A stretch of 64,000 nucleotides of DNA from a virus, in the IMG/VR virus record IMGVR_UViG_3300027896_000014, positions 1-64,000 of that record, one strand, 5' to 3'. Under the pieces are notes generated by a model. The model was not told where the DNA came from. It did no database searches and was given only the letters and a program-made list of their open reading frames with translations. A program made the translations under genes and the position numbers. Positions 2,524 to 63,268 of the stretch are shown piece by piece (the stretch's first letter is position 1; every line of letters starts with the position of its first letter).

Positions 2524-2528
2524 AATTG

Positions 2529-23633: not shown

Positions 23634-24062
23634 ATGTTTAAAAAAACAAAACTTTTAGTATTGGTATTGGCCATATGCTTACTGTTACCCCTTGCCTCAC
23701 TTGCGGCCCCTACAGAAACAACTAATTGGGTGGTGGACCCTTATGGGATCAGCGAGCAATATGGATTAGCCATGATGCTCAATAGAATGGGCACCAGAGT
23801 TTTATTCCAGATTGGGAGTTGGGTTATTCCTTATAATGGCCCGACTTATGATTATTGTGCTACATTTCAAGATCAAGTCGTTGGAGGGGGGATTCGTGCC
23901 CAACTTTTCACTGGCAACTTTGATATTTGGGTAACACCAGCCAGTGTGACTGTAGGGCCATTTGGGAGTTTATTGCTTGCGGATATAATTATCACCCCAG
24001 GCACAAATTACAGACTATGGTATTCAGTGAGGACCACTCCTTGGCCTCCAAGGAATCAGTAA
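23634..24062 (+). CDS. secreted small beta-rich protein (142 aa)
   Basis: 142 residues with AAGGAGGA upstream. Signal peptide MFKKTKLLVLVLAICLLLPL then a cleavage-like SLAAPT. The mature part is beta-rich and aromatic (NWVVDPYGISEQYGLAMMLN, WVIPYNGPTYDY). It lies among head genes, where a Sec signal is unexpected. No family recognised. Confidence 0.7.
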   Translation: MFKKTKLLVLVLAICLLLPLASLAAPTETTNWVVDPYGISEQYGLAMMLNRMGTRVLFQIGSWVIPYNGPTYDYCATFQDQVVGGGIRAQLFTGNFDIWVTPASVTVGPFGSLLLADIIITPGTNYRLWYSVRTTPWPPRNQ

Positions 24063-24962: not shown

Positions 24963-25742
24963 ATGGGCTGGAATCCGAGACCTTTTCTTGGAAGTCAAAT
25001 AAATAGGGCACATCCTCTTTTGAGGGGTTTGAAGTTATGTAGTCCCCTCAATGAAAGTGGAGGACTTTATCTTCAAGACGTGGCCTCGAATCTTAGACAG
25101 GGAACTATTACTGGGGGGATCTGGAAACCTATGGCAGATGATGGGGTTTACCTGAATGGGAGTGGGCAGTATATCGGTTATCCCCAGATTAGCTCTGATT
25201 TAACAAATACTCAGGAAATGACGGTTTCTATGTGCTGCAATATCCTTAATCCTGTTGCTAATGACAGGTATTTTGAAACTAAAGCGGTTTACAGTGATCT
25301 CAATGGTTGGACAATACAAGACTCTGGAGTAGTCAACTTCCAATTCTTTTGTAATGTGGCACAGGTAATTGCTTTACAAGGTTATACCACAGGTGTCTGG
25401 GCTGAGCAGACTATTAGCTATAAGAATCCAGGCAACTGTAATGGATATATTAATGGAGTTTTAAAGGCCCAAGTTGCTACCACTTATGGTATGTCATCTA
25501 ATTCCAATCCTTTCTATATCGCACGTTATGGGTCAGGAGGCAATAATGCCACGATAATGGTTAAGCATATTTTCTTCTGGAACAGGCAATTATCAGATCA
25601 AGAAGTCATGGATTTTTACAACAGGCCCTATGCCATGTTTGAGCAACCCCAGAGGGCGAAGTGGTTTATGTTACCGGTGGCAGGGGTGGCACAGCAGGCA
25701 TATCAACCCTGGGCGCAGATGGGGCCAATTTTGGCGCAATAA
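24963..25742 (+). CDS. LamG/concanavalin-like virion protein
   Basis: 259 residues. NESGGLYLQDVASNLRQG, NDRYFETKAVYSDLNGW, KNPGNCNGYINGVLKAQ, and KHIFFWNRQLSDQEVMDFYN match the laminin-G-like jelly roll used in carbohydrate- or adhesin-binding phage fibres. The C-terminus MFEQPQRAKWFML is typical of these proteins. Likely surface-exposed and host-receptor related. Confidence 0.8.
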   Translation: MGWNPRPFLGSQINRAHPLLRGLKLCSPLNESGGLYLQDVASNLRQGTITGGIWKPMADDGVYLNGSGQYIGYPQISSDLTNTQEMTVSMCCNILNPVANDRYFETKAVYSDLNGWTIQDSGVVNFQFFCNVAQVIALQGYTTGVWAEQTISYKNPGNCNGYINGVLKAQVATTYGMSSNSNPFYIARYGSGGNNATIMVKHIFFWNRQLSDQEVMDFYNRPYAMFEQPQRAKWFMLPVAGVAQQAYQPWAQMGPILAQ

Positions 25743-35475: not shown

Positions 35476-37026
35476 ATGCTTTTAGAGATTTCAAAGTTTG
35501 GGGGTGTTGCTCCGAAGGTGCTTGATCCAGTCGCCTTGGCAGTGGGCAAATCACAGGCAGCCCAAAATTGTAGGTTCGACGAGGGCGGGATAGTGCCCTA
35601 CCAAACCGACTCATTCATCGAAACGCCTCCTGGTCGAAGTCCATCAATTTTATCCCTTTATACCTACTGGATTGGAAATAGAATGTACTTTCTGACTTGG
35701 GCAAGTGATGTGGATGCCGTGGAAGCTCCACTACCAAACGATATGTATAATAGGGTTTTTTATACGGAAAGCGGAATACTAAAAGTTACCGATCAAAACA
35801 TTTTCATGCAGGGTGGAACGAATTACCCTATGGCCTGGGTAAACCCATCTCCTCCCGCTCCAGTCAACACACCGATAATTTCCGCAGTGATAGCGGGAAC
35901 CAACCCAGCCCTGATGCAGACAAGAGGTTATGTCTATACCTTAGTCAATGCCTACGGAGAGGAAGGTCCACCCTCTCCCGTTTCGAACCTTTTTAATATT
36001 TATGACGGGAATCCTGCCACTTTAAGCGGCATGGATACCTCGGTTGATAGTTCCTACAACATCCAAACAAAAAGGATTTATCGTATCAACCAGACGGCGG
36101 GCAGCGGTGCTCAATACCAATTTCTGACAGAGATCCCGCTTTCTCGGTCTACGTTTTTCGATGTCATCTTAAACTCTGCATTAGGGGAGGTGCTCCCAAG
36201 CGCTGAATGGGATGGGGCACCGTCTGGAATAAAAGGACTTATTGTGCTCCCCAATGGAATGTTGGCCGGTTTTGTCAATACTCCAGCCAATCTTGTTTGT
36301 CTTTCCGTCCCCTATTATCCTCACGCGTGGCCAGCCCGTTACCAGAAGGCGATAGACAGCCCAATTATTGGCCTGGGGTCTTTTGGAACGACAATCGCCG
36401 TTCTTACCGAGGGTCAACCCTACGTCATCGTCGGCAATGATCCAGAGAACTTAGTCATGGAAAAAATGGATACGGGCCTTTCCTGTTTATCAAAAAGAGG
36501 GGTGGCCCATCTTCCCGACGTTATTTACCCCTCCCCCGAAGGGCTTGTGCAGATAGGTCCGCAGGGATGGAATAATTTAACGGAAGACCTAATGAATAAG
36601 GATCAATGGCAATCCAGATATAACCCCGCATCCATAACAGCTTTTGACTATGACGGGAAATATGTAGCATTCTATCAAACCGCTACGAAGCAAGCTGGTT
36701 TTATCTTTGACCCCAAGACCAAAGACCTTGTTGACCTTGATTTTTACGCCACGGCAGGTTTTCGAGACCCCGTTGATGGGACATTGTATCTTGTCGTGGG
36801 TGGCAATATCGTCGCTTTTGCTCGAGGGGGTGGTTTTAATGTAGGAGGTTTTGTTGCAGGTGGAGAAGTTGAAGCAGTAGGCTATTTAAGTATGACAAAC
36901 CTCGGAGTGTTGTCCGCCGATCCCGATACAACTGGTTGGGGATCGGCCCAAGAAGGATGGTGCTGGTATAACGCTACTGATCATCATTACAAATACTGGG
37001 ACGGAACTAAACCCGTTTTGATGTGA
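35476..37026 (+). CDS. tail hub or DNA-stabilisation protein (P22 gp10-like, 516 aa)
   Basis: 516 residues: LLEISKFGGVAPKVLDPVAL, CRFDEGGIVPYQTDS, YVYTLVNAYGEEGPPSP, EGQPYVIVGNDPENLVMEK, and YDGKYVAFYQTATK, with beta-propeller-like strands. Matches phage packaged-DNA-stabilisation/tail-hub proteins in context. It starts directly after the adaptor stop. Confidence 0.7.
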   Translation: MLLEISKFGGVAPKVLDPVALAVGKSQAAQNCRFDEGGIVPYQTDSFIETPPGRSPSILSLYTYWIGNRMYFLTWASDVDAVEAPLPNDMYNRVFYTESGILKVTDQNIFMQGGTNYPMAWVNPSPPAPVNTPIISAVIAGTNPALMQTRGYVYTLVNAYGEEGPPSPVSNLFNIYDGNPATLSGMDTSVDSSYNIQTKRIYRINQTAGSGAQYQFLTEIPLSRSTFFDVILNSALGEVLPSAEWDGAPSGIKGLIVLPNGMLAGFVNTPANLVCLSVPYYPHAWPARYQKAIDSPIIGLGSFGTTIAVLTEGQPYVIVGNDPENLVMEKMDTGLSCLSKRGVAHLPDVIYPSPEGLVQIGPQGWNNLTEDLMNKDQWQSRYNPASITAFDYDGKYVAFYQTATKQAGFIFDPKTKDLVDLDFYATAGFRDPVDGTLYLVVGGNIVAFARGGGFNVGGFVAGGEVEAVGYLSMTNLGVLSADPDTTGWGSAQEGWCWYNATDHHYKYWDGTKPVLM

Positions 37027-37031
37027 GATTT

Positions 37032-40000
37032 ATGAAATTAAAAAATTTAATCATCATTGGATTGATTCTTTTATTCCCCGTATTTTGCCACGCTGCGGCA
37101 ACTGATTATTGGGTCGATAACAATGGTGTTGTTCATTCTTATAGCCTGATTACCAAAGGTTTTCAATTGGGCACCTCAGCCACCGCTGGCTATGTCTTAA
37201 CCACTAATACTTCCGGTGTGGGAACCTGGCAGGCAGGAGGAGGAAGCATTGCTTGGGGTTCAATTACAGGAACTTTATCTAATCAGACTGATCTTCAAAA
37301 TGCTCTTAATGCCAAGGAATCGGCCTTGACTTTTCAATATTCTGTATATCGAAGTGGGAACACAATTAACCTTCTTAACGATTCGGCATCCCCACCTGCC
37401 TCTTACTACTATGGAACGGATTCAGGAGGAACGAGGGGATTCTTTATCCTGCCCTCCACCTCTGGCATGATCTATCCTGGTCCAGGCATAGCTGTGAGCA
37501 CAGGATCAATGTGGGGAACTTCCATTACTGACAACTCAGACCATTGGAACACTGCTTATGGTTGGGGTTATTGGGCACACACTACCCTTGCGGGATATGG
37601 GATCACCGATGCAGCTCCGCTTGCTCACAAGACGACAGAGGACGCCATAAATGGCTTAGTCTTTGTCAATGGAGCGGGAACCTACTCTGCTAAGGTCATA
37701 GGCACCGATGTTCAAGCATATAATTCCTCCTTAGCCGCCATTGCCGGAGGGACTTGGATTGGTGCAAATTCGATTACCACATTGGGGACAATTGGCACAG
37801 GGGTTTGGCAAGGGACGGCAATAGGAGATACCTACATCTCTTCGGCAAACAACTGGACTACAGCCTATACAGGGAGGGTAACCACATGGAATTCTCCTTT
37901 ACAATTCTCCTCGAATACCGCCTCGATTTTACAGGCCAGCACTACGGTATCTGGCTACCTTTTATCAACTGATTGGAATACCTTCAATACTAAGGAACCT
38001 GCCATATCTGCCGGAGCAACTTCCCAATATTGGAGAGGGGACAAATCTTGGCAGACTCTAAATCAAGCTGCTGTGGCTGGGCTAACTACTTCAGACAGTC
38101 CTACATTCACAGGATTAACTCTTTCTGGAGTAACTTCAACCGGAGCCTCAATTAAACTACAGGAAGGCCCAACTTCTGGAAACACATTCATAGCTCACAA
38201 GGCTCCCAATACCATTACAACCAGTGTGACATACACATGGCCTGAACTGGGAACGACGGGTTACTTTCTAAAACTTAATGATTCAGGTGGGACTCTGGTT
38301 TGGGCTGCTGCTTCTGGTGGTGGTATGACCGATCCCATGACTACTATTGGGGATATGATTTACCGGAATTCTTCCAATATCACTGATCGACGAGCTATTG
38401 GCACTACGGGTCAAATATTAACGGTTTCTGGCGGATTACCCGTTTGGGCTACCCCCGCTACTGGTTTAACCGTTGGAGGTTCTGATAAGGATGTCCAGGT
38501 TAATGCAAGCGGCACCTTTGGAGCAGATACAGGAGTTTTTACTTATGATTATACAAATCATATGCTAAGTGTCTTGGGTTCCTATGCAGGAAGCAAGTTA
38601 TCATTAACTCTACGGAATACATCCACTGGGACAACTTCATATAATCAAATGAGTTTAGGTAATGACATAGCATCAGATAGGTTTTATATAAGACTGCTCT
38701 CCTCATATTTCTCTGGTTTAAGTGAATATTCCTATATTATTAGTAAGGCCAGTGCTCCGATGATTCTTGGAGTGAATGGTTCTGAGGTGATGAGACTTAC
38801 AGGGACTTACGTAAATATAGCTGGTTTAACTGCATCTCAAGTGGTAATGACCGATGCCTCAAAAGATTTAGTATCACAAGCTCCAGCCGCTTTAACTAAA
38901 ACGGATGACACGAATATGACCTTAACGTTGGGGGGAACTCCTGCCACCGCATTACTTCAGGCCGTTTCATTAACTTTGGCTTGGACTGGAACTTTGGCAG
39001 ACGGGAAAATAGCCTCAGCAACCAATTGGAACGCCGCCTATAGCCATAAAACGACTGAGGACGCCCTAAGTGGCCTTGTATTCGTCAGTGGAGGTTCTTA
39101 TTCATCTAAAGTAATCGGGTCAGACGTGCAAGCGTTTAATGCTAACCTTGCCACGATTGCAGGATTGACGCCGGTTCAGAATAAAATTATGGTTGGGAGC
39201 GGCACCCCTGCTTGGTCAGTCTCTTCATTTACGGTTCCAGCTACACCAACGGCAAATAAAGCTCTTATTGGGGATGGCACAAACTTTATTTTAAGTACCC
39301 CTACCGTCCCATTTGCTTCATCTCCCGCAGCGGGAAAAGTAATGATCGGGGATGGAACGAATTGGGTTGCCTCCACCCCGACCTATCCCAACACTTCACC
39401 TGCATCGGGCAAGATTCTGATCGGAGACGGCACAAATTTTATTGCTTCTACTCCTACTTATCCAAACGCATCTTCACCAACGGTAAGGAAAATACTGGTT
39501 TCTGATGGGACGAATTGGGTAGCTTCGACTGAGACCTATGCGGTCCCTGGAACATCTGGGAATGTTATGACATCCAATGGCACAAATTGGATCTCATCAA
39601 CTCCCAGTAGTATGGTCTATCCTGGAGCAGGCATAGCGTTAAGCACGGGGTCTGCATGGGGAACTTCTATCACCGACAACTCAGCCAATTGGAACACAGC
39701 GTATACCAATCGGGTGAGTTCCTGGACTTCTCCCCTCCAATTCTCTTCTAACACTGCTTCAATCCTACAGGCCAGCACCTCGGCAAGTGGATATCTTTCA
39801 TCGACGGACTGGAATACATTTAACAATAAGGAATTTGCCTTAACCTTTCAGTATTCTCTCTACCGAGCAGGGAACACGATAAACCTTTATAACGATTCGG
39901 CATCCCCAGGCAACTCTCAGTATTATGGGACGGATTCGGGAGGAGCGAGAGGGTTTCATACTTTGCCCTCTGGTACTGTCCCAACGGGTACACAAGGAGA

Positions 40001-42188
40001 TATGGTCTACAAGGGGGCGTCTGCCTGGCTTTCTGGAAAGATGTTTACTAACGTAACTGCCTATGCGACTATTGCAGCGGCCGTGGCTTCGGGCAATAAA
40101 TTACTTTTCATTCCTGAAGGAACTTACACGGAAGCTATATCTCTTTCAAGCTTATCTGACATCTTCATAATGGGGGCTGGAAATGGCACCAAAATTAGGC
40201 CCTCAAGCGGAAGTGCTCTTACTGTGTCAAACTGTTCCCACTGTACAGTTTCAAATTTAATGTTAGATGGGTCTGGCGGAGCTTCTTCAGGTATAACCAT
40301 AAATGTAGCTCCTTATGATCGTTTTCAAAACCTATATATCTCAGGCTTTTCAAGCTATGGCATAAATATAAATGGTGATGGTTCAACGGAAACCTATTTT
40401 AGAGACATTTATATTGACGCCATTAATGACACCTGTTTTAATTACACGAGGGGAACAACCACAGATACGGGTGGGATTTATCTTGATAGAGTCAATCTTA
40501 TGCACGAAGGTGGAAGTGGTACAAAAGCACTAAATATCAGTTGTGCTTCCTATACTAACGTCTTCTGGGAAATAAATAATCTTGTTGTTGATGCTTATGC
40601 TTCCTCCTGCCCAATAACTATTACCAATGCTGGCGATGTTAGGGCCATGAATGTCTGGGTGTCTAATAATGTAGCCAACGATGGTTCTATAAAAATTAGT
40701 GGGGGTGGTCAACAAAGCTATGTTCAAATGAGACTCAATAATGGAAATGCCAATGCTTATGGAATAAATTTTATTAATGGAGCAAATCATATATCTTTTG
40801 AGGCGGTTGAGTTTCCCGAAGCAAGTACTAATGGTTACTGTATTTACTTTGATGGTAGTTCCTATACTGACATCAACTTAGGTAGATACCGCACCGAAGG
40901 GCTAACGCCAGTTTTATCAAATCATCCCTCATACATAACTGTTACGAGTACGGGAGGTGCAGGAGGCGGTATAACCTCTTTAAATGGATTAACCGTATCA
41001 TCTCAAACTTTTGTCAATGACACGAATGTAACAATCACCTCTACGGGTTCAACGCACACTTTGGGATGGCAAAGCACGTTGGCGGATGGAAGAATTTACT
41101 CAGCCTCAAATTGGAACACAGCGTATACCAATCGGGTGAGTTCCTGGACTTCTCCCCTCCAATTCTCTTCTAACACTGCTTCAATCCTACAGGCCAGCAC
41201 CTCGGCAAGTGGATATTTATCTTCGACAGACTGGAATACATTCAACAATAAGCAGAATACCTTGACTAACCCCGTAACGGGGACGGGGACTATGTACTAT
41301 CTTGCTGCTTGGTCCTCTACAAACAGTATTCAGCCCCTTGCATCCCTTGGCACTTCCGGCTACGTGCTCACATCTACCGGTGGTTCGTCTCTTCCCACAT
41401 GGCAGGCTGCGACAGGGGGAGGCAACGTATCCACTAATGGTACGCCTGCCCTTCATCAGTGGGGCGTATGGTATGATTCAAGTCATATTAAAGGTGTAGC
41501 GGTCACAGCTTCGAAGGTAGCGTGTACTGACTCCAACGGCGAGCCGATAGCCTGCACAAACCTTACGGATACCACTGTATCAGCTTTTGATCCCACGGTA
41601 AACTCAGTATTTTATGAAGATTTTAATGCCCTATATGAAAATTCGTGGGAGTTGTTCGGTACTGTCGCTGCCTCTGCCCAGGACAGGAATGGAGTCATAG
41701 TAATTTCTGGCGATGATGCTTCTATTATTCCATTAGGGAGACCTGCTCAAAGCAACATTTCTACCCCATATGTCCAGTCAAAGAATCCTACGGTGATAGT
41801 TAGAGAAGCTCAATTTGGAGCTACTCAAACAACCACACGGTATTTTGGTTTAGCAAGCGGTGATTTAACCGCAGTCCCATATAACGGGATTTATTTTAGA
41901 CATGCTAAAAACAGTAATTATTTTGGAGTATGCCGCAAAGCGGGTTCAGAATCAACAATCGATACAGGTGTCACAGCAGCCAACGGGACTTTTCATACTT
42001 TGAAATTCGTGGTAACTGGAACAACTTCGGTTCAATTTTTTGTGGACGGGAGTTCAAAGGGTTCAATTACCAATGCTACCTATATTCCAACAGTAAATAT
42101 GTATTTTAGTCTGGGAGATGATGATGCTACTTTTAAAAGTACAGAAGGTTTATATATAGATTATGTTTATATAAGCCAGAATCGTTGA
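37032..42188 (+). CDS. long tail-fibre-like protein with a signal peptide
   Basis: 1718 residues. N-terminus MKLKNLIIIGLILLFPVFCH then AAATDYW is a classical Sec signal. Then a fibre body with repeats of SSWTSPLQFSSNTASILQAS, 4 units of GDGTN(F/W)xxSTPT-type, a beta-helix-like region near residues 1020-1300 (CSHCTVSNLMLDGSGG), and a C-terminal jelly roll (VFYEDFNALYENSWEL). Probably the receptor-binding fibre, but a cytoplasmically assembled phage fibre should not carry a Sec signal. ATG at 37032 is preferred over GTG at 37023. Confidence 0.8.
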   Translation: MKLKNLIIIGLILLFPVFCHAAATDYWVDNNGVVHSYSLITKGFQLGTSATAGYVLTTNTSGVGTWQAGGGSIAWGSITGTLSNQTDLQNALNAKESALTFQYSVYRSGNTINLLNDSASPPASYYYGTDSGGTRGFFILPSTSGMIYPGPGIAVSTGSMWGTSITDNSDHWNTAYGWGYWAHTTLAGYGITDAAPLAHKTTEDAINGLVFVNGAGTYSAKVIGTDVQAYNSSLAAIAGGTWIGANSITTLGTIGTGVWQGTAIGDTYISSANNWTTAYTGRVTTWNSPLQFSSNTASILQASTTVSGYLLSTDWNTFNTKEPAISAGATSQYWRGDKSWQTLNQAAVAGLTTSDSPTFTGLTLSGVTSTGASIKLQEGPTSGNTFIAHKAPNTITTSVTYTWPELGTTGYFLKLNDSGGTLVWAAASGGGMTDPMTTIGDMIYRNSSNITDRRAIGTTGQILTVSGGLPVWATPATGLTVGGSDKDVQVNASGTFGADTGVFTYDYTNHMLSVLGSYAGSKLSLTLRNTSTGTTSYNQMSLGNDIASDRFYIRLLSSYFSGLSEYSYIISKASAPMILGVNGSEVMRLTGTYVNIAGLTASQVVMTDASKDLVSQAPAALTKTDDTNMTLTLGGTPATALLQAVSLTLAWTGTLADGKIASATNWNAAYSHKTTEDALSGLVFVSGGSYSSKVIGSDVQAFNANLATIAGLTPVQNKIMVGSGTPAWSVSSFTVPATPTANKALIGDGTNFILSTPTVPFASSPAAGKVMIGDGTNWVASTPTYPNTSPASGKILIGDGTNFIASTPTYPNASSPTVRKILVSDGTNWVASTETYAVPGTSGNVMTSNGTNWISSTPSSMVYPGAGIALSTGSAWGTSITDNSANWNTAYTNRVSSWTSPLQFSSNTASILQASTSASGYLSSTDWNTFNNKEFALTFQYSLYRAGNTINLYNDSASPGNSQYYGTDSGGARGFHTLPSGTVPTGTQGDMVYKGASAWLSGKMFTNVTAYATIAAAVASGNKLLFIPEGTYTEAISLSSLSDIFIMGAGNGTKIRPSSGSALTVSNCSHCTVSNLMLDGSGGASSGITINVAPYDRFQNLYISGFSSYGININGDGSTETYFRDIYIDAINDTCFNYTRGTTTDTGGIYLDRVNLMHEGGSGTKALNISCASYTNVFWEINNLVVDAYASSCPITITNAGDVRAMNVWVSNNVANDGSIKISGGGQQSYVQMRLNNGNANAYGINFINGANHISFEAVEFPEASTNGYCIYFDGSSYTDINLGRYRTEGLTPVLSNHPSYITVTSTGGAGGGITSLNGLTVSSQTFVNDTNVTITSTGSTHTLGWQSTLADGRIYSASNWNTAYTNRVSSWTSPLQFSSNTASILQASTSASGYLSSTDWNTFNNKQNTLTNPVTGTGTMYYLAAWSSTNSIQPLASLGTSGYVLTSTGGSSLPTWQAATGGGNVSTNGTPALHQWGVWYDSSHIKGVAVTASKVACTDSNGEPIACTNLTDTTVSAFDPTVNSVFYEDFNALYENSWELFGTVAASAQDRNGVIVISGDDASIIPLGRPAQSNISTPYVQSKNPTVIVREAQFGATQTTTRYFGLASGDLTAVPYNGIYFRHAKNSNYFGVCRKAGSESTIDTGVTAANGTFHTLKFVVTGTTSVQFFVDGSSKGSITNATYIPTVNMYFSLGDDDATFKSTEGLYIDYVYISQNR
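39687..39794 (+). repeat. 108-bp direct repeat, left copy
   Basis: Identical at DNA level to 41109-41216, inside the fibre gene; encodes NWNTAYTNRVSSWTSPLQFS and the following residues. A near copy occurs earlier at about 37850-37985. The perfect identity against diverged surroundings suggests recent copying. Confidence 0.85.
41109..41216 (+). repeat. 108-bp direct repeat, right copy
   Basis: Second copy of the 39687-39794 repeat, 1422 bases downstream, in frame with the first. Recombination between the copies would delete the beta-helix region and keep the frame. Confidence 0.85.
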
Positions 42189-42200
42189 AAAGGAGGGTCT

Positions 42201-42458
42201 ATGAAAAAGTTCTATTGTTTAGGAATTGTTTTGGTAATCCTGATGGTGATTGGGATTGCAATGGCAGGTGAGAAGGAAGAACTTCAACTCCAAAGAGCCG
42301 TGTTACAGGAGAAATTAGGCCGTCTTATGGCTGAATTTGAACTCGCTAAACGTGATATGCAGGCCATAGAAATCCGGTTAAACGACATAATGAAGGTCGA
42401 GCAAGAGAAGCAGGAAGAGGGGAAGAAAAATACACCAAAACAAGGGGAAAAGAAATGA
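42201..42458 (+). CDS. secreted coiled-coil protein (85 aa)
   Basis: 85 residues: signal peptide MKKFYCLGIVLVILMVIGIA with a MAGEKE cleavage region, then a charged coiled coil (residues 25-75). AAAAGGAGG upstream. It follows the fibre gene and may be a fibre-associated or chaperone protein in the periplasm. Unknown. Confidence 0.65.
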   Translation: MKKFYCLGIVLVILMVIGIAMAGEKEELQLQRAVLQEKLGRLMAEFELAKRDMQAIEIRLNDIMKVEQEKQEEGKKNTPKQGEKK

Positions 42459-42727
42459 CGACGGTTTATAGAACCATCGACTATCGTACAAAAAGATATA
42501 GATTCCCCTTAACTTCTTTTGGGGTTTTGAAGGTAATCGCTCCCGTTTACCCTGTAAACATCGATGTGGTCTATCCAAAACTACCATATACGCTTGTTTG
42601 CACGGTCAATTCAGACGAACCGGTAAGACTCCCATCGCTTCTTGTCGATGCCTGTGAAGTGAGGATTTACGGCCCAGCGGTAACAGCCGTCTATTTAGCG
42701 AGTACCATGCAGGAGTTACCAGCATGA
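42455..42727 (+). CDS. hypothetical protein (90 aa)
   Basis: 90 residues, beta-rich (YRFPLTSFGVLKVIAPVYP, YTLVCTVNSDEPVRLPSLLV, CEVRIYGPAVTAVYLAS). ATGA overlap with the previous gene. Unknown function. Confidence 0.6.
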   Translation: MTTVYRTIDYRTKRYRFPLTSFGVLKVIAPVYPVNIDVVYPKLPYTLVCTVNSDEPVRLPSLLVDACEVRIYGPAVTAVYLASTMQELPA

Positions 42728-42981
42728 AACCAGTCATACCACAGATACGAACCTTCGCCCACGTGCAAAGTGCTCTGAATAATCTCAGGCAATACTATAA
42801 GGGGATTCCCGAAGGACCCGTAATTCCGACCATCAAGACCTTTGGGGATGCGAAGACCGGATTGAATAACATTAGAAGTTATTACTCAAAAATCAAAGGC
42901 TCCCCTGTCATTCCGACCGTAAAAACATTCAGGGATGCACAGAGTGCCTTAAATAACGTAAGGAGTGGGACGAATGTATGA
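42724..42981 (+). CDS. three-repeat small protein (85 aa)
   Basis: 85 residues made of three ~28-residue repeats beginning PVIPQI/PVIPTI/PVIPTV, each with TF..(V/A)(Q/K)(S/T)(A/G)LNN(L/I/V)R. No family recognised. ATGA overlap at both ends. Confidence 0.6.
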   Translation: MKPVIPQIRTFAHVQSALNNLRQYYKGIPEGPVIPTIKTFGDAKTGLNNIRSYYSKIKGSPVIPTVKTFRDAQSALNNVRSGTNV

Positions 42982-52400: not shown

Positions 52401-52892
52401 GAACCAGTCCAAGTTCAAGAATTTATAAGATGGATGAATGGCGAAATAGAAGCCTTTGATGCCATAGGTCAATCCGTAGGAGCAGGCATTATTTCAACTT
52501 ATAGGATTCCTCAAAGTCGTTTTGAGAGATATGCCGCTGATATTCCTCATTTTGGAAAGGAACCAACTGAGAGAACAGAACTTAAAAGAAAACTCGGAGA
52601 ACAATTAAGACTTGAAGAACCGGAAGCCAAAGAAAGGATAAAAGAAGCCTATAGAGAGGAAAAGATTAGTGAACGGGACAAGGAAGATATGGAACGCCAT
52701 GCAAAGATGAGTTCTACGGCCAGGGCCGCCGAGCATATGACTGTCGATGAACTCGCAAAAGGGATTTCTAAAGGGCTAACAGAGGAAGAAAAACGAATCC
52801 TTAAACCCGTATTTAAAAAGCGTATAGACAATGCTAAAAACCTTGACAAAGAAACGAAACGAAGATATCGGGCAATGCAAAAAGAAATGTGA
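46473..52892 (+). CDS. giant polyvalent/internal virion protein
   Basis: 2139 residues. The N-terminus has a phage-common module [19 protein letters not shown]...[20 protein letters not shown] first zinc-peptidase-like motif HEIGH lies near residue 601, and a second HEVIH near residue 1043. Much of the rest is helical; late regions ([20 protein letters not shown] and following) resemble large polyvalent protein C-terminal domains. It is probably ejected with the DNA and may open the host envelope or carry enzymes. Whether both HExxH sites are catalytic cannot be seen here. Confidence 0.8.
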
Positions 52893-52903
52893 AGGAGGAG
52901 ACT

Positions 52904-53161
52904 ATGAGCCGAGAGGAAGATTTGCACGAGGGTTATAAAATCTTTTTAGCAATCACCCAAGAGGATAGGGGGTTTGAAACGGCAGCCAAAGAATTACAGC
53001 GGAAAATTAATGAGGCTGAGAAAGAGTACGACATTGAATTTTTGAGTGGTCCCCATTTTCGGGACGATCCCGGAAGAAGTGGAGGCGGAGTTTCTTTCGC
53101 TGGTCAGGCTGGTGTACTGAAAAAGAAGGCTTTCTTTGGCACTAAACGCCCAGGTAAATAA
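52904..53161 (+). CDS. hypothetical protein (85 aa)
   Basis: 85 residues from MSREEDLHEGYKIFLAITQ, chosen for AAGGAGGAG upstream. Charged helix, then GPHFRDDPGRSGGGVSFAGQ and a basic end. Unknown function. Confidence 0.6.
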   Translation: MSREEDLHEGYKIFLAITQEDRGFETAAKELQRKINEAEKEYDIEFLSGPHFRDDPGRSGGGVSFAGQAGVLKKKAFFGTKRPGK

Positions 53162-53162
53162 T

Positions 53163-54422
53163 ATGGTAGACCTCTCAAAACTTAACGCTCTTGTGATCGG
53201 ATACGGAGTGTTCGAAGTCTTCATGGCTCAAAAACTGGCCGAAGAGTTCAAGACGGTCAGGCTTTATACGCCTTGCGAAGAGTCTTTCCCTCTTCTGGAA
53301 AAGCAAACTATTGGGGAAGGTGTGCCGGGTGTTACCAGGGTCGATAACTACGAAGACTACAAGGAAGATACCGACCTTTTTTGCTTTTTCGATTACGGTT
53401 TTGCCAGCAAGCAGGAAGAGCTTAGAAAGGCGGGGAAGCGTGTCTTCGGTGCAGGGAACAGCGAAATACTTGAGATGGATCGGATACTGTTTGCCAAGAC
53501 ATTAGCCAACGTTGGACTTCCCGTCTTCAAATATCGCGTCGTAAAAGGTGTGGATGCCCTGACGGATGTGCTGAAAAAGGAAAAAGATTTGTGGGTGAAA
53601 CTGCCAAACAAGGCAAGGGGAATCCGGGAAACCTTTCATCATTCGGAATGGAAAAACTCGATAACAAAGGTTGACGAACTTGCCCATAAGCTCGGTGGGT
53701 ATCGGGACAGCCTTCAGTTCATGGTAGTAGACCCGATACCGGGGATCGAAGCGGGATGTGAGAAGTTTCTCTCAAATGGAGATTACCCTGAGATAGCACT
53801 CTGGGGACCAGAACTCAAGGGAGCCGGATACATTGGAAAAGTAATGGCCATGGCTGACATGCCGAAGGCTCTCAAAAAAGTAGATGACGAAATGGCGAAA
53901 ATTTGGAAGAAGTATAAGGTCTGCGGCCACATTTCTTCTGAAGTCAGGGTAGGCAAAGACAGGAAACCTTATTTTACGGACCCCTGCCAGCGCTTCCCTT
54001 CGCCTCCTGGAGAAGCCGTCTGCGAGGCGTACAAGAACATCTCTCAACTCATCTGGCAAGTGGCAGGGGGAGAGCCTATAAAACCCGAACCCGCTGCTAA
54101 GTATGTAGCTGAGGTCTGTATCTACAGCCCGATAGGAAAAACAGAGTGGGTGCCTGTGAACTTCCCAGAGAAGGAATTTAAAAGGCTGAAATTCCGCCGA
54201 TTGTGTCGCATCGAAGGACAGTATTATTGCCTACCAGACAAGGATGCAGGCGATCGCATCGCTGCCTCCGTAGGTCTTGGCGAAACGAAAGAGGAAGCGG
54301 AGTTCGAGGCAATGGAAGGTTGTGAACAACTAAGGTCAGAGTCCAAAGATTACGACAAGGCAGTTTTTAAAGAGATCGATGAGGTAATGGAGGAGGCGGA
54401 ATCTTACGGGGTGACGTTCTGA
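53163..54422 (+). CDS. PurD-like ATP-grasp enzyme
   Basis: 419 residues. The N-terminal Rossmann-like part (LNALVIGYGVFEVFMAQKL) parallels PurD's KVLVIGxGxREHAL. The ATP-grasp part has EILEMDRILFAKTLANVGLP, FKYRVV, KDLWVKLPNKARGIRE and a Mg-loop-like DPCQRFPSPPG; the C-terminus EAEFEAMEGCEQLRSESKDY parallels PurD's end. It is related in plan to GAR synthetase, which forms an amide bond with ATP. Substrate unknown. ATG chosen over an in-frame upstream start. Confidence 0.75.
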   Translation: MVDLSKLNALVIGYGVFEVFMAQKLAEEFKTVRLYTPCEESFPLLEKQTIGEGVPGVTRVDNYEDYKEDTDLFCFFDYGFASKQEELRKAGKRVFGAGNSEILEMDRILFAKTLANVGLPVFKYRVVKGVDALTDVLKKEKDLWVKLPNKARGIRETFHHSEWKNSITKVDELAHKLGGYRDSLQFMVVDPIPGIEAGCEKFLSNGDYPEIALWGPELKGAGYIGKVMAMADMPKALKKVDDEMAKIWKKYKVCGHISSEVRVGKDRKPYFTDPCQRFPSPPGEAVCEAYKNISQLIWQVAGGEPIKPEPAAKYVAEVCIYSPIGKTEWVPVNFPEKEFKRLKFRRLCRIEGQYYCLPDKDAGDRIAASVGLGETKEEAEFEAMEGCEQLRSESKDYDKAVFKEIDEVMEEAESYGVTF

Positions 54423-54565
54423 TGGCACAAACAACCATTCCGAGAAATGATCCAAAAGCGGTGAAGAAGTGGGCCGGCGATAGGGAACTTTCCTACGATG
54501 TGCTACGGCAAGCTCAAGAACATCCGCCCAAGAGAAAGAAATTTAAAAGGAGAAGAAAACCATGA
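54422..54565 (+). CDS. small basic protein (47 aa)
   Basis: 47 residues, MAQTTIPRNDPKAVKKWAGD then a very basic tail FKRRRKP. It starts at the ATP-grasp stop (TGATG) and overlaps the next gene's ATGA. Unknown function; short basic proteins of this type accompany podovirus fibre genes. Confidence 0.55.
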   Translation: MAQTTIPRNDPKAVKKWAGDRELSYDVLRQAQEHPPKRKKFKRRRKP

Positions 54566-55812
54566 AAAAGTTTTTGATTGCTCTATTGCTTATCTTGATT
54601 CTCGGTGCTGTTCAATATTCTCAAAGTCAAACTACGTATTATCAATCGATTCAGTTTAGGCGGGACACTGCTCAAAATTGGACGAACACAAATCCCGTAC
54701 CTCTTCAAGGGGAGCCTTGTTTTGAATGGGATTCAGGTCGCCTCAAGATTGGCGACGGTCTTTCTCACTGGACGGCACTCCCTTATCAGCCGCCCCCCGC
54801 CGCCTATCCGCCTATTTCATGGGGGCAAATCACGGGGTCAGTATCCAATCAAACAGATCTCTACAATAACTATCTTTCCACCTATGTTCCGATGAACAAT
54901 CCAACATTTACGGGGAAAGTTACGACGCAACCTTCTTCAACGTATAGTGCAGGTATAAGTATTCCCCAGGGGACCGCTCCTACTACTCCTTCAAATGGCG
55001 ATGTATGGACCACAGCGAATGGTCTATACGTTCAAATTAATGGAGTTACAATGGGTCCTTTTGCCATTGGACAACCGGTTAGCAATCCGTCCTGGTTTAA
55101 AAATTTGGTTATTAAAACACCAGCGACCACTCAGTTAACAGTCACCGCCGATGCCGTTGGTTTGCTCAATCCATCTAACAATGCCGCTACCACGATATTG
55201 GGCATCGCTGTAAGTATAACCATTACAAATGTTGGGCCGAACGGACTTGACACAGGAACTCTTTCGGCTTCATCGTGGTATAGTGTGTGGGTAATTTATA
55301 ATCCAACAACCCAAACCGCCGCAGGCTTGATCTCTATTAACACCGGATCTCCAAACCTACCGATTGGGTATACTTATTGTGCAAGGCTTGGTTGGGTTAG
55401 AACCAGTGCAAGTAGCACTTTGGTTCCGACCACCCAATATGGCCGCAGAGTTCAATACGTCAATGGCGGGTCAGGTCTTCCCCTGATGGATAGCGGGCTT
55501 AAAGGAAGTATAACCACTCCTACGTGGGTAGCCGTAGCCACAGGAACTTTTGTCCCTCCCACCGCTTATCGGATTACTGTTTTACCTTACGAGTATGCTG
55601 GTTGGGGCATTGCCGTGTGTCCGAATAGTAGTTATGGTGCATATACCAGTACGACAAATCCACCTTTTGCCGTTATAGACTGGCCAAGCATTAGTGCTGT
55701 TAATGCCGCCGGAACGCCCATAGAAATGACTCTTGAAAGCTCGAATATTTATTGGGCAAGCGGAACGGCTACAAGTTACCTTTATTGTATCGGTTTTGAG
55801 GACAATCTTTAA
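54562..55812 (+). CDS. fibre-like protein with a signal peptide
   Basis: 416 residues. Signal peptide MKKFLIALLLILILGAVQYS then QSQTTYYQ. The next segment SIQFRRDTAQNWTNTNPVPL, GEPCFEWDSGRLKIGDGLSH matches the N-terminal tail-fibre domain of Mtd/hyaluronidase-like phage proteins. The C-terminal 250 residues are beta-rich. The fibre domain is normally at the very N-terminus, so the signal peptide is a clear addition. Overlaps the preceding gene by ATGA. Confidence 0.8.
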   Translation: MKKFLIALLLILILGAVQYSQSQTTYYQSIQFRRDTAQNWTNTNPVPLQGEPCFEWDSGRLKIGDGLSHWTALPYQPPPAAYPPISWGQITGSVSNQTDLYNNYLSTYVPMNNPTFTGKVTTQPSSTYSAGISIPQGTAPTTPSNGDVWTTANGLYVQINGVTMGPFAIGQPVSNPSWFKNLVIKTPATTQLTVTADAVGLLNPSNNAATTILGIAVSITITNVGPNGLDTGTLSASSWYSVWVIYNPTTQTAAGLISINTGSPNLPIGYTYCARLGWVRTSASSTLVPTTQYGRRVQYVNGGSGLPLMDSGLKGSITTPTWVAVATGTFVPPTAYRITVLPYEYAGWGIAVCPNSSYGAYTSTTNPPFAVIDWPSISAVNAAGTPIEMTLESSNIYWASGTATSYLYCIGFEDNL

Positions 55813-55824
55813 AAGGAGGAAATC

Positions 55825-56151
55825 ATGAAAAAATTCTTACTGGTCTTAATTTTGGTTTTGGGCTTTTCTCTTTCGGCTTTTGCGGCCAAGGAAAGTGTCA
55901 CCTGAGACAACACATCCGGCGGAGTTCCGCTGACAGTCACCACTTATGGAGCTGCGCAAACTGCCTTTATAAGCGTAGAACAGGCTGAGATAAGGTTCAC
56001 CCTCGATGGGAGTGATCCCTCTGTGAATGGGCATCTTCTTGAGCCTGGTATGTGGCTTTCTCTTACCAAGGCCGAACAGATTTGGGGTTTTAGGTGCAAC
56101 CGTACCGGAGGGGCGAGTGGCATCATTAAGTCAGAATATTTTAAAAACTAA
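55825..56151 (+). pseudogene. exported fibre-like small protein interrupted by TGA
   Basis: 108 codons plus a TAA stop. The first 26 residues form a signal peptide MKKFLLVLILVLGFSLSAFA then AKESVT; codon 27 (55903-55905) is TGA where the sense is likely Trp (VTWDNTSGG is a natural reading). The next 81 codons are open and read as a phage-type protein (EIRFTLDGSDPSVNGHLLEP, FRCNRTGG). The rest of the phage uses TGA as a stop, so this is a nonsense mutation or a readthrough signal. AAAGGAGGA upstream. Confidence 0.7.
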
Positions 56152-56175
56152 AACTTTTTAAAGGAGGGAATAGTT

Positions 56176-56931
56176 ATGAAAAAGAAATTGATTGCTGTTT
56201 TACTTGGAGCGCTTTTCCTTGGGGTCCTTGCTTCCCCATGCTTCTCTCAAAGCATCGGCGGATTTGGAATGGTGCCCGTCACGGGTAGATTGCTCAAAGT
56301 AACGGTTCTGACTTCTGGCACCAGCTTTGTCGCCCAGACCTGGACTACCCAACTCGTCGTTGAAGTTGTGGCTGCTGGCGGTGGTGGCGGTGGTGTTAGC
56401 GGGACTGCTTCAAACGCAGCATGCGGAGGCGGCGGCGGTTCCGGTGGGTATGCCCTTAAATATTTTACAGGAGTAAGCGGGGGCGCAACCTATACCTATG
56501 CAATTGGAGCTGGAGGTACGGCTGGGGCGAACACGGGAGGCACAGGGGGGACAGGAGGCAATACGACCTTCACGGGACCTGGTGCAGTTCTTATCACAGC
56601 CAATGGAGGGCTTGGCGGAGTTGGCATAGTCTACAATACTACGGCTGCGGTCGTCGCTGGTGGAGCAGGCGGAGCGGTAAGCACAAACGGAGACCTCAAT
56701 GCTGGTGGCACGGGCGGAGAATTCGCCAAGCGTGATTCTGGAACTTTGGCCGTCAGTGGCGGCGGAGCGGCAAGCATCTTCGGAGGCGGTGGAGTTGGGT
56801 TGACCGCACAGGGGAACGGAACTAATGCGACCGGATATGGAGCCGGTGCTGGTGGGGCTTTGTCCACTGCTGCTGCCTATACTGGTGGAGTCGGAGCTGG
56901 TGGCGTAATAATCGTCTGGGAATTTTCATAA
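56176..56931 (+). CDS. glycine-rich adhesin-like protein with a signal peptide
   Basis: 251 residues. Signal peptide MKKKLIAVLLGALFLGVLAS then PCFSQSIGG. The mature part is beta-rich with glycine-rich tracts (VEVVAAGGGGGGVSGTASNA, CGGGGGSGGYAL), as in glycine-rich phage adhesins (for example T4-type gp38) that form polyglycine-type helices and bind the host. AAGGAGGGA upstream. The signal again sets it apart from usual fibre tips. Confidence 0.75.
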   Translation: MKKKLIAVLLGALFLGVLASPCFSQSIGGFGMVPVTGRLLKVTVLTSGTSFVAQTWTTQLVVEVVAAGGGGGGVSGTASNAACGGGGGSGGYALKYFTGVSGGATYTYAIGAGGTAGANTGGTGGTGGNTTFTGPGAVLITANGGLGGVGIVYNTTAAVVAGGAGGAVSTNGDLNAGGTGGEFAKRDSGTLAVSGGGAASIFGGGGVGLTAQGNGTNATGYGAGAGGALSTAAAYTGGVGAGGVIIVWEFS

Positions 56932-56946
56932 TAGAGGAGAACTGTG

Positions 56947-57207
56947 ATGCCCTCAATGATTGATCAAAGAGATTTTGAGAAAATAAGTGACCCGAACACA
57001 AAGTTAAATATTCTTTTTGATTACACAGCTAATGTCTATACTCTTCTTTGTAAAAAAGATATTGACTGCGAGAATAGATTAATGAGTTGCAATGGAAGGT
57101 TTAAAACTCTGGAAAATAGAAAGAAGCTCGATATGACTGTGAGCGGGGTATTTGGATTAATCGGAGGTTTCATTTCGGGATTGGCAAAAACGGTATTTCG
57201 CTTTTAA
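56947..57207 (+). CDS. small membrane-anchored protein (86 aa)
   Basis: 86 residues: a soluble N-terminal helix and a C-terminal hydrophobic segment (SGVFGLIGGFISGLAKTV). GAGGAGA upstream. ATG at 56947 preferred over the GTG at 56944. Resembles XhlA-type holin-accessory proteins, but this is a weak match; lysis role inferred from context. Confidence 0.55.
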   Translation: MPSMIDQRDFEKISDPNTKLNILFDYTANVYTLLCKKDIDCENRLMSCNGRFKTLENRKKLDMTVSGVFGLIGGFISGLAKTVFRF

Positions 57208-57223
57208 AGATGGACAAGAAATA

Positions 57224-57616
57224 ATGGACCTTCAACTTGTAAGAAAACAAAAGACCGCTCAATCAACGATGGGTGATCTTGCCGTTAACACCCTTCATGA
57301 ATGCTTTACCTTTGAGCCTCCTAAACCCATCCCTGCTGGTATTTATTTGATAGAATTTTATATGTCCCCTGAACATGACTATTTAGTCCCTCTATTGAAG
57401 GACGTTCCAGGTCACACCTACATAGAGATTCATGTCGGGAATTTCCCGAAGGATACCAAAGACTGTATTCTTGTAGGTCAGAATCGCTCTCCCGATGAGG
57501 TAGGGAATTCCTTACAGGCTTTTATCCATCTTATGCTCAAGCACTTAATTCCCGCAGTTTGGTTTAGGAAAGAACTTTTGAGGATTATTATCACGGAGGA
57601 CTTTCAGGAGAATTAA
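57224..57616 (+). CDS. DUF5675 family protein
   Basis: 130 residues: QSTMGDLAVNTLHECFTFEP, PIPAGIYLIEFYMSPEHDYL, then YIEIHVGNFPKDTKDCILVG, a DUF5675 signature (IPAGxY and HxGNxxxDTxxCIxVG). DUF5675 proteins occur near phage lysis genes and may act on the cell wall; activity not established. It follows the small membrane protein. Confidence 0.8.
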   Translation: MDLQLVRKQKTAQSTMGDLAVNTLHECFTFEPPKPIPAGIYLIEFYMSPEHDYLVPLLKDVPGHTYIEIHVGNFPKDTKDCILVGQNRSPDEVGNSLQAFIHLMLKHLIPAVWFRKELLRIIITEDFQEN

Positions 57617-57686
57617 GATGATAATTTTTTTCTGGAGAAAACTATTTCAAATCTTAGAGGACATCCAAAGAAAGGAGGTGATTATA

Positions 57687-57914
57687 ATGGGTGCATTAGA
57701 AGATCTACAGGCAAAGGTACAGGCTCTCAAGGACTTGGTTGCGACTATTAACACTTCTGTTACAGGAGAGATCGCAAGGGTTGAGGCGATTATTCTTAAT
57801 CTCCAGACAGGAAGTGTTTCTGCCGCAGATGTAGAAAAGGCCGCCACCGATCTTCAGGGTGTGGTCGATAACCTGAAGACGGTTGGAACGACACTGGATG
57901 CGGAAAGACCCTAA
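57687..57914 (+). CDS. coiled-coil small protein (75 aa)
   Basis: 75 residues from MGALEDLQAKVQALKDLVAT, chosen because AAAGGAGGT lies upstream; the frame is open 23 codons further. Heptad-like coiled coil. Similar small coiled-coil proteins accompany holin genes. Confidence 0.65.
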   Translation: MGALEDLQAKVQALKDLVATINTSVTGEIARVEAIILNLQTGSVSAADVEKAATDLQGVVDNLKTVGTTLDAERP

Positions 57915-57929
57915 TAACCTTTTCCCCGA

Positions 57930-57953
57930 TTCCCCAGCGGGTAGTCTGGGGAA
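57930..57953. other. perfect 8-bp hairpin before the holin
   Basis: TTCCCCAG, loop CGGGTAGT, CTGGGGAA, followed by AAAC. It may separate or stabilise transcripts, or be a weak terminator; no T run on the plus strand. Confidence 0.6.
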
Positions 57954-57975
57954 AAACTTATAGGAGGTGAGTTAA

Positions 57976-58158
57976 ATGTTAGGAAAAAACTGGAAGACTT
58001 CTTTGTTTGGTTTGTTAGGCGCCGTTTGCATCGCCATCTATCCAATCCTTCAGTCGGGCAAGGTTGACCCTCACGCATTGATCATGGCGATAGCGGTTGC
58101 GGTAATAGGTTTTCTTGCAAAGGACTTCAATGTGACTGGAGGGACAATAAGGCAGTAA
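57976..58158 (+). CDS. holin-like small membrane protein (60 aa)
   Basis: 60 residues with two hydrophobic segments (LFGLLGAVCIAIYPILQ and LIMAIAVAVIGFLA) joined by a short turn, the plan of class II holins. TAGGAGGTG upstream. It lies in the lysis-like region. Confidence 0.7.
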   Translation: MLGKNWKTSLFGLLGAVCIAIYPILQSGKVDPHALIMAIAVAVIGFLAKDFNVTGGTIRQ

Positions 58159-58171
58159 AGAGAGGAGTAAA

Positions 58172-58270
58172 ATGTATTGTCCATGCGGAAAGGAACTTAC
58201 CTTAACATCATTGAATCCATGGGTGACTTTTACAACAGATAATTGGGGTAAAATCATATCTGGTACTTGA
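58172..58270 (+). CDS. very small protein (32 aa)
   Basis: 32 residues, MYCPCGKELTLTSLN and onward, with AGAGGAG upstream. One Cys pair. Tentative; too short to assign. Confidence 0.45.
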   Translation: MYCPCGKELTLTSLNPWVTFTTDNWGKIISGT

Positions 58271-58343
58271 ATCCACGGAAAATATTTCCCTCCAGTTAAG
58301 GAGGATAAACCATTTCAGGATTATTTTAAGGAGGTAAGATAAA

Positions 58344-58787
58344 ATGAAAAAGCTTATCATATTATCATTTCTTTTTCTGTTTCTAATGGGTTGCGCAACA
58401 TATCAGACCGCTATTACCAAGATCACGGTAATGGATCAGCAAAATGCTGCCACGACCCGAATTGCGGCCAAAGAGATTGCTTCGACATGGCCTCTCAATT
58501 CAAGCGCCCTCACTGTCGTGCTTAAAAAGTTCACTACATTGCTGCCCTGTGCTTGCAGTGATGATATCAAGACTTTGGACAGCATCGCAGCCAAATGCGT
58601 CAAAAAGGATGCGAATGGGCTTCCCACCTGTGAGGAGCTTACGGACCAGGACATGGGCCAAGTAGTTGTCCTGTGGGGATGGGTATGGGGTAGCATCGTA
58701 AAAAGCGGAGCCGATCAGATTATGCAGACCTTCTTCCCAGCGGTGTTAGCTAAGATCCTCCCTTACGTAACTGCGTTGGGTTTATAG
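58344..58787 (+). CDS. lipoprotein (possible o-spanin-like)
   Basis: 147 residues. Signal peptide with lipobox: MKKLIILSFLFLFLMGC, Cys at residue 17. Mature part has Cys-rich LLPCACSDDI and AAKCVKKD, then a hydrophobic C-terminus (WGWVWGSIV, PAVLAKILPYVTALG). TAAGGAGGT upstream. An outer-membrane lipoprotein in a lysis region could be a spanin, but the C-terminal hydrophobic segment is not typical. Confidence 0.65.
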   Translation: MKKLIILSFLFLFLMGCATYQTAITKITVMDQQNAATTRIAAKEIASTWPLNSSALTVVLKKFTTLLPCACSDDIKTLDSIAAKCVKKDANGLPTCEELTDQDMGQVVVLWGWVWGSIVKSGADQIMQTFFPAVLAKILPYVTALGL

Positions 58788-58876
58788 GCAGAACTACGTA
58801 ACTCATTGATTCATGGTGCATGGTTTGATATTGGCGGGAGTGAGAAGTCTTGTTGTAGAGCATCCTGAAGAGGTAT

Positions 58877-59578
58877 TTGACTTTGGAAATAGACGACAGA
58901 CTATTTGCTATCGAGGAGGAAATAATATGGGGCCTCCTCGATGGATTTTTGAAGAACGCCAAAAGAATCCCGTGGGGTCCAACGAGCAAGGCAGTGGTTT
59001 TCTCCGATCAGCACAGGGGGGATAAGAGTGTTGCGGACCAGTTCCTCAAGAATGAGGACTTACACAATCAGGTGCGTCAATCCTTCCGTCAGGATGGATA
59101 CCTTCTTATAGACAATGGCGACCTCGATGATTTATGGGAATTTGGAGACGCCCCGTACAAATACTACGGGAACTTGCACTCTGACATCAGGACACGTGGG
59201 AATCATGATAATAAACGGAGAGACCTTCCAGAGGTCGTGGTATTAGACTCTGACCCTCCTATCCTCATAACACATGGGCACAAGGGTGATCCGGTCGATG
59301 ACCAGCTTTCCTTTATAGGGGAGGCAGCGGTTCATATTTGGAGGTTAGTTGATAATCTGGGTATTCCGAATCCTTTTGGCGCGGGGTCCACAAGGCATGA
59401 GGACATAAAGGAAATAATGAAGAGATGGTCAAATGCGAGATCAGTTCCTTTGGTTACAGGCCATATCCACTATGCAGAGATTGACGGGATGTATAAGAAT
59501 TCGGGATTTTGGAAAGGAGTAGGCGGTCAGGCCATTATAATTGAAGGAAATGAATTTAAATTGGGGAGTTGGCAATGA
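58877..59578 (+). CDS. calcineurin-like metallophosphoesterase
   Basis: 233 residues, TTG start (a second TTG six bases later is possible). Metal motifs: FSDQHRGD, NGDLDDLWEF, RGNHDNKRRD, ILITHGHKGD and TGHIHYAEID, the full DxH...GD...GNHD...GH...GHxH set. It is a phosphodiesterase or phosphatase of the calcineurin fold. It overlaps the next start by ATGA. It is not close to SbcD in size, so it is not an evident partner for the SbcC-like ATPase. Confidence 0.9.
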   Translation: MTLEIDDRLFAIEEEIIWGLLDGFLKNAKRIPWGPTSKAVVFSDQHRGDKSVADQFLKNEDLHNQVRQSFRQDGYLLIDNGDLDDLWEFGDAPYKYYGNLHSDIRTRGNHDNKRRDLPEVVVLDSDPPILITHGHKGDPVDDQLSFIGEAAVHIWRLVDNLGIPNPFGAGSTRHEDIKEIMKRWSNARSVPLVTGHIHYAEIDGMYKNSGFWKGVGGQAIIIEGNEFKLGSWQ

Positions 59579-60360: not shown

Positions 60361-60373
60361 AAACGGGTTGACC

Positions 60374-63252: not shown

Positions 63253-63268
63253 GATTGTTATCTCCTTT

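Follow-up and report, generated by a model that had tools for sequence, protein, structure and literature searches.

The late region of a temperate podovirus encodes fibre-type proteins that begin with predicted Sec signal peptides. We studied a 64,000-nucleotide stretch of this virus (positions 1 to 64,000 of IMG/VR record IMGVR_UViG_3300027896_000014; the window hereafter), and the signals on its fibres are likely genuine and used for export by Sec, as judged from the sequence. Tail fibres are thought to be assembled in the cytoplasm, and export signals are normally absent from them. If phage fibres leave the cytoplasm first, then either their assembly includes a step that is new, or phages make secreted adhesins of their own. 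Signal-bearing, phage-like fibres are known from Bdellovibrio; here, the signal-bearing fibres are encoded in a phage late operon. In the titles and opening parts of abstracts of the open-licence PMC literature, no report of Sec signals on phage tail fibres was found.

The virus and its late genes

The window was assigned to a temperate podovirus that has BcepIL02, PEp14 and PBC5 among its relatives. It possesses a major capsid protein gene at 31319 (PF13252 in Pfam, E 2.1e-53), a P22-type portal gene at 21269, an integrase gene at 11237 and a RecT gene at 62266. The capsid protein is 44-46% identical to its counterparts in BcepIL02, PEp14, Itty13 and PBC5, and a contig of a Desulfosarcina metagenome genome encodes one with 54% identity. 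Over both stretches compared, the window is identical to a 60-kb contig from IMG/VR sample 3300003852.

The source virus record is 145 kb in full. Positions 1534-3267 and 62266-63998 of the window form a direct repeat of 88% identity with the RecT gene inside, and at 74-145 kb the record carries more long genes, of which six were scanned, including one for a 2409-aa protein with an LPD1 domain. Because of this repeat and this gene set, the record may comprise two adjacent phages. A papain-like cysteine protease gene (PF00112) was observed at 59569-60360, at the end of the late region.

The features considered below are as follows.

23634..24062, + strand: 142-aa signal-bearing protein between the portal and capsid genes; no family
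24963..25742, + strand: 259-aa lectin-like protein without signal (PF13385 Laminin_G_3, E 1.3e-9)
35476..37026, + strand: stabilisation / internal virion protein gene (phrog_511, E 1.6e-112)
37032..42188, + strand: 1718-aa fibre-type protein with Sec-type signal (from N-terminus and repeats; no Pfam or PHROG match)
42201..42458, + strand: 85-aa protein with signal or signal-anchor and coiled coil, Rz-like spanin candidate (phrog_739, E 4e-4)
42724..42981, + strand: 85-aa protein with three motif copies and no signal (from motif comparison with sister phages)
54422..54565, + strand: 47-aa ORF with a capsid-N-terminus-like start (from sequence)
54562..55812, + strand: 416-aa fibre with signal, Mtd_N, linker and beta-rich tip (PF18454, phrog_17105, model)
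55825..55905, + strand: signal peptide and first residues of an interrupted gene (from sequence)
56176..56931, + strand: 251-aa protein with signal and glycine-rich fibre-tip domain (PF21722, E 1.4e-9; phrog_863, E 3.4e-34)
58344..58787, + strand: 147-aa putative lipoprotein of the lysis region (lipobox LMGC)

The initial annotation had placed its several signal-bearing genes under the range 37032-42188. Only 37032 lies there; 54562, 55825 and 56176 form their own cluster ahead of the lysis genes, apart from 37032.

Signal-type N-termini in the window

Signals were assigned by a home-made rule together with reading by eye and are thus predicted Sec/SPI signals. The N-termini of 23634, 37032, 54562, 55825 and 56176 show a basic tip (n-region), an uncharged hydrophobic core and a cleavage region with small residues at -3/-1. 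The predicted cleavage sites are ..LPLASLA↓A in 23634, ..FCHAAA↓T in 37032 and ..LSAFA↓A in 55825. For 54562, the site was read by eye as ..YSQS↓Q and placed earlier by the rule; for 56176, it was ..GVLA↓S by the rule and ..PCFS↓Q by eye.

Thus, the five signal-type N-termini named in the initial annotation were all confirmed. However, 55825 is not an intact fibre gene: its codon 27 is TGA (55903), and the frame runs on to a TAA at 56149. The same interruption is present in the identical contig of sample 3300003852, and the continuation after the TGA had no match in the phage collection. The gene 23634 is intact, but its product, with no Pfam family and a PHROG match only at E 0.093, is not recognisable as a fibre.

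Of 45 late genes on the plus strand, the rule flagged five (23634, 42201, 54562, 56176 and 58344). When the N-termini of these 45 genes were shuffled, it flagged 132 of 9000 (1.5%; binomial P 5e-4). A strong Shine-Dalgarno sequence precedes four of the five named genes and six of the seven signal genes scored, the exception being 37032 in both counts. 37032 was not flagged by the rule because of its weak Shine-Dalgarno sequence, and 55825 because of its stop codon. Among the 55 other ORFs of the window, two were flagged, namely 12986 and one on the minus strand that overlaps virion genes; beyond the window, it was 7 of 135 ORFs in the remainder of the record.

As a control, the rule found four of five known E. 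coli signals (PhoA was missed) and flagged neither of two negatives. Among the ORFs of relatives, it flagged 21 of 956 real N-termini, 11 of 956 shuffled ones and 11 of 2660 internal Met segments. The ORFs after the capsid gene were read in 129 of 130 capsid-relative loci (80 viral loci and 49 of 50 genome contigs; L245 was omitted), a set that contains the window's own contig. Among ORFs of at least 100 aa, a second rule flagged 18 of 527 in the viral loci and 10 of 479 in the genome contigs, many of them false by eye.

Further signal-bearing genes of the window are 42201, 58344 (with its lipobox) and 12986. The last (12986-13600, near the integrase gene) encodes a 204-aa protein that ends in ..GIRVQW and looks like an outer-membrane barrel by eye; no match was found in Pfam or PHROG. 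We dropped the reading that the window holds no signal-free adhesin, in view of 24963 with its Laminin_G_3 match. This lectin-like adhesin candidate may be a virion adhesin. Since it has no signal, exported proteins need not be receptor-binding proteins. Foldseek matches in the PDB (Cry proteins and similar) were discarded, as their TM to the query was <0.2.

Gene 37032 and the slot after the stabilisation gene

A possible GTG start at 37023 overlaps the 35476 stop codon and lies 9 bases ahead of the 37032 start; the signal is present whichever of the two starts is used. Since 37032 starts at the stop of 35476, it is probably translated with this virion gene and made together with the virion proteins. 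Its product carries the phage-fibre repeats DWNTFNNK and GDGTNWVAST and appears by eye to have a beta-helix-like part and a lectin-like C-terminus. The last 702 residues had no sequence match in the PDB. The model of residues 1014-1718 was poor (pLDDT 43); strands were seen in the first ~270 of these residues.

In podovirus MW202701, a distant relative, a 715-aa fibre with an ordinary N-terminus and no signal directly follows the stabilisation gene. The repeats that it has in common with 37032 are 55% identical over 69 residues (GTSGNVLTSNGTTWASTTP..VYPGAGVAVSTGTAW). Among the IMG/VR loci with 37032 repeats and a complete 5' end, signals were found in 4 of 73 (78 loci, the best of 483), namely L031, L037, L038 and L057. 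The first rule had scored eight of the 73 as positive; L013, L014, L046 and L069 were start-codon artefacts. In a second set, which excludes the window's own contig, the count was 0 of 72 with a complete 5' end (79 loci, the best of 381). The statement that fibres mostly lack Sec signals thus agrees with 69 of 73 and 72 of 72 loci in these two sets. A search with 37032, run without a positive control, gave no match in 297 genomes from the phylum to which the L196 genome belongs.

We also surveyed the slot after the stabilisation gene in 55 listed loci, one of which (L246) is the window's own. In only one of these 55, the sister phage L269, does a signal-bearing fibre-like protein directly follow the stabilisation gene. 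The L269 stabilisation protein is 60% identical to that of the window over 303 residues; the signal-bearing protein, which starts 10 bases after it, differs from that of the window and has a tail-fibre match (phrog_5073, E 7.9e-11). In L312, an 86-aa signal-bearing protein lies 107 bases after the stabilisation gene.

In the sister phages L254, L256, L274, L277 and L280, the slot protein opens with a motif like PxIPxIRTFxDVQxALxxIRxYF (by eye in L256, L277 and L280), and in L263-L265 this motif opens the second protein after the stabilisation gene. The product of 42724 consists of three copies of PVIPxIKTFxDAQxALNNxRxYY in a separate 85-aa protein, as also in L270. Because of its place at the start of slot proteins, the motif is a putative virion anchor.

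A signal in front of Mtd_N in 54562

In 54562, the phage attachment domain Mtd_N occupies residues 30-66, directly after the signal (PF18454, E 3e-14; 53.1 bits against a curated cut-off of 26.3), and the beta-rich tip covers approximately residues 179-416 (phrog_17105, E 7.8e-37). Hence the protein does not open with Mtd_N, which begins behind the signal. In the structural model, blocks over residues 181-340 have a pLDDT of 81-97, and those beyond 58-91; a hydrophobic helix was predicted at residues 2-16. In fold, the tip was most similar to Mtd of Bordetella phage BPP-1 (model residues 173-297; Z 8.1, 100 residues) and to the tip of Bdellovibrio Bd2133 (Z 8.0, rmsd 3.3, 103 residues), values that are barely over the tool's warning level for common fold arrangements.

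Among the best 80 of at least 590 confirmed IMG/VR loci with Mtd_N, 78 have the domain at the very N-terminus and no signal. One of the other two has an unclear start, and the second, L340, has a signal followed by Mtd_N. A protein of cyanophage S-WAM1 opens with Mtd_N, and structures of phage hyaluronidases match Mtd_N of 54562 weakly (E 5.5e-4 to 0.053), at chain residues 3-78. Apart from the window, 20 IMG/VR loci (duplicates counted) carry the 54562 tip, and signals were found in two of them, L090 and L101. Both counts (78 among the best 80, and 18 of 20 tip relatives) again support the view that fibres mostly do without Sec signals.

If cleaved at the site read by eye, 54562 would keep 7 residues ahead of the Mtd_N motif, and the fibre of L334 would keep 6. 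In the unsignalled relatives, 4-7 residues precede the motif in 55 of 56 readable cases (48 have 4, and one has 12), counted over 79 relatives of which 23 were unreadable. Four of them have 7 residues, like cleaved 54562. Since the 7 residues fall within the range of the relatives, cleavage would give an ordinary fibre N-terminus.

The L334 fibre (genome G349) combines a signal, Mtd_N and a tail-collar domain (E 2.6e-25), and the L340 fibre is identical to it in length and start. Over their first 77 residues, 54562 and the L334 fibre share 51% identity. The gene lies after a giant late gene and before a cell-wall-hydrolase-like gene (by eye), an order that resembles the window, where 54562 likewise precedes the lysis region. 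When PF18454 was searched in 395 genomes of the phylum of the L196 genome, six had a match, and one more was found in G002. Four PF18454 neighbourhoods were read, and a real signal was present in one, G349. A signal flagged by the rule in L337 was rejected by eye, and none was found in L333 (minus strand) or in the G121 protein of L329 (read in L336); the minus-strand loci L326, L330 and L332 were not taken into the comparison. No second case was found in 155 genomes of the class of G349. In the sister phage L277, an Mtd_N-like fibre (by eye) near the stabilisation gene has no signal.

The 47-aa ORF at 54422-54565, whose stop overlaps the 54562 start, begins with MAQTTIPRNDPKAVKKWAG, resembling the capsid N-terminus, and has a basic tail at its end.

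Signal-bearing fibres in other phages

In the cultured relatives, the flagged CDS numbered 0 of 26 in PEp14, 1 of 55 in Itty13 (no fibre), 3 of 54 in BcepIL02 and 1 of 15 in PBC5. One of the three in BcepIL02, a fibre flagged by the first rule, was rejected by eye, and the PBC5 slot by the phrog_511-type gene, tried as a fibre, holds a hydrolase-like protein instead.

In L101, a siphovirus-like contig that entered the comparison through tip similarity and not through a signal, a tail-tip-like gene is followed by a run of three fibre genes of signal type. The first and third were flagged by the rule, and the middle one was assigned by eye. The second has a Gly_rich_2 domain, as in 56176, and BLAST found no direct match between the two. 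The third fibre protein and the 54562 tip share 36% identity over 259 columns.

In ppBdUSDA122-1 (OP596612), signal-type N-termini were found on WAX24263 and WAX24264, beside an annotated tail protein. Apart from an acyltransferase, these are the sole proteins of this phage of >200 aa with <14% charged residues. The WAX24264 signal is less typical, as further hydrophobic residues follow it. In total, 6 of 60 CDS were flagged, and two of the other four are doubtful by eye. In PMC10127595, it is listed as a siphophage whose tail measures 125 nm, and the host is described as releasing particles of this kind.

Additional signal-type late proteins occur in the capsid relatives L196, L271 and L276. 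L196 has a signal-type beta-helix protein (PF13229) and a fibre-like one assigned by eye that has no Pfam or PHROG match; one such protein of L276 has a hydrolase PHROG match. L271 (11750-12193) and L276 (9131-9559) encode signal-bearing proteins of 143-148 aa, 38% identical, ~650 bases past the capsid gene.

In L268, L269, L270, L272, L275, L280, L284 and L285, inserts of ~0.8-0.9 kb interrupt the major capsid gene between codons 66 and 92. L284 and L285 have three inserts. In the four inspected (L268, L270, L275 and L280), the inserts contain ORFs that are HNH-endonuclease-like by eye. They are possibly introns; no Rfam family was found in them above threshold.

Interpretation of the signals

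We regard the signals as most likely real because of their excess over shuffles, their recurrence, the order of signal and Mtd_N, and the comparison with unsignalled relatives. The earlier argument that recurrence in several genes speaks against chance is strengthened by the repetition of the pattern in L340/L334, L101 and ppBdUSDA122-1. Since tagged fibres recur in a few unrelated viruses, they probably work or mature outside the cytoplasm.

We infer the export, cleavage, place and role of the window fibres from sequence, as follows. The fibres would be made late, together with the virion proteins, but would be exported and not assembled inside the cell. Signal peptidase would trim the tag, leaving a normal fibre N-terminus. 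The trimmed fibres would then act outside the cytoplasm, on the envelope of the dying cell, in released debris, or on virions after lysis. This working mode would be MAT-like (mosaic adhesive trimeric proteins, see below), with the genes in a phage late operon. We lean towards this adhesin role of the exported fibres, which would parallel that of the MAT fibres. However, the fibres of most relatives have no signal, and a periplasmic adhesin needs a further step to reach the surface, for which no candidate was identified.

Alternatively, the exported fibres might mature in the periplasm and join virions after lysis, by Mtd_N or by anchor peptides of the 42724 type. We consider this doubtful, though it has several points in its favor: cleavage of 54562 would leave the same number of residues before Mtd_N as in four unsignalled relatives, the slot-opening anchor motif of sister phages is a separate three-copy peptide in the window, and ppBdUSDA122-1 makes particles though both of its fibre-like proteins bear signals. 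In contrast, the signal-free 24963 could be the virion adhesin, and this reading gives no reason for the triplication of the motif in 42724. A second assembly route of tailed phages, in which receptor-binding fibres undergo Sec export, periplasmic folding, trimming to the usual virion N-terminus, and fitting after lysis, the anchor now being the separate peptide 42724, is a rather unlikely proposal.

About equally unlikely is that the exported tips bind host receptors and so shield the progeny from debris, or a lysogen from superinfection. T5 Llp masks host receptors and offers an analogue for such protection of lysogen or progeny. The tip-bearing proteins are signal-bearing, and the putative lipoprotein 58344 lies in the same region, as this explanation would have it. 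However, promoter-like sites in 52500-60500 were not in excess (12, as against 11.2 in shuffles), and 37032 overlaps a virion gene. The initial annotation had suggested decoration of the lysogen surface; this fits 37032 poorly, because 37032 should be made with the virion proteins.

The initial annotation had left a choice between export and an N-terminal anchor. Export before lysis is the better option. An uncleaved N-terminus that anchors the fibres, in the cytoplasm or on the virion, to a membrane or tail would agree with the hydrophobic helix predicted in 54562, but we think it quite improbable because the cores are short, small-residue cleavage sites follow them, and the residues left before the Mtd_N motif fit the relatives; in both 54562 and L334, the tag precedes a complete attachment domain. 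Functionless hydrophobic N-termini arising by chance, wrong starts or decaying cargo are very unlikely: 55825 is broken and signals are rare among relatives, but the excess over shuffles, the recurrence in unrelated phages and the strong Shine-Dalgarno sequences at all scored signal genes except 37032 speak against them.

Comparison with known systems

Among the closest known counterparts of the window fibres are the MAT fibres of Bdellovibrio bacteriovorus. In PMC10769870, MATs are described as bacterial proteins that bear signal peptides, some of them located in the vesicle or bdelloplast, and all 21 have a common domain of ~130 aa after the signal. The window fibres are like them in the signal peptide, the long fibres and the phage-adhesin-like parts, and part of the 54562 tip matches Bd2133 by fold, barely above the level of common arrangements. 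Unlike the MAT genes, the window genes sit among phage virion and lysis-region genes. In 54562, an Mtd_N match directly follows the signal. We liken the window fibres to MATs by their signal and do not claim MAT membership for them.

With its Mtd_N match above the Pfam cut-off, 54562 is also like Mtd of BPP-1 and the phage hyaluronidase fibres. Whereas Mtd_N fibres mostly open with this domain, 54562 has a signal ahead of it. PBC5, a related podovirus, has a signal-bearing protein (orf16) beside the phrog_511-type gene; unlike the window fibre, orf16 has an end that is SGNH-hydrolase-like by eye.

Bradyrhizobium phage ppBdUSDA122-1 shares with the window the signals on both of its fibre-like proteins. 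Unlike the window podovirus, it is a siphovirus with a different N-terminal domain on these fibres, and the term "tail fiber" is absent from the main text of PMC10127595. This phage allows the export of fibres to be tested in culture. Exported phage fibres would, moreover, be a possible source of the signal-bearing, phage-like MAT fibres of predatory bacteria.
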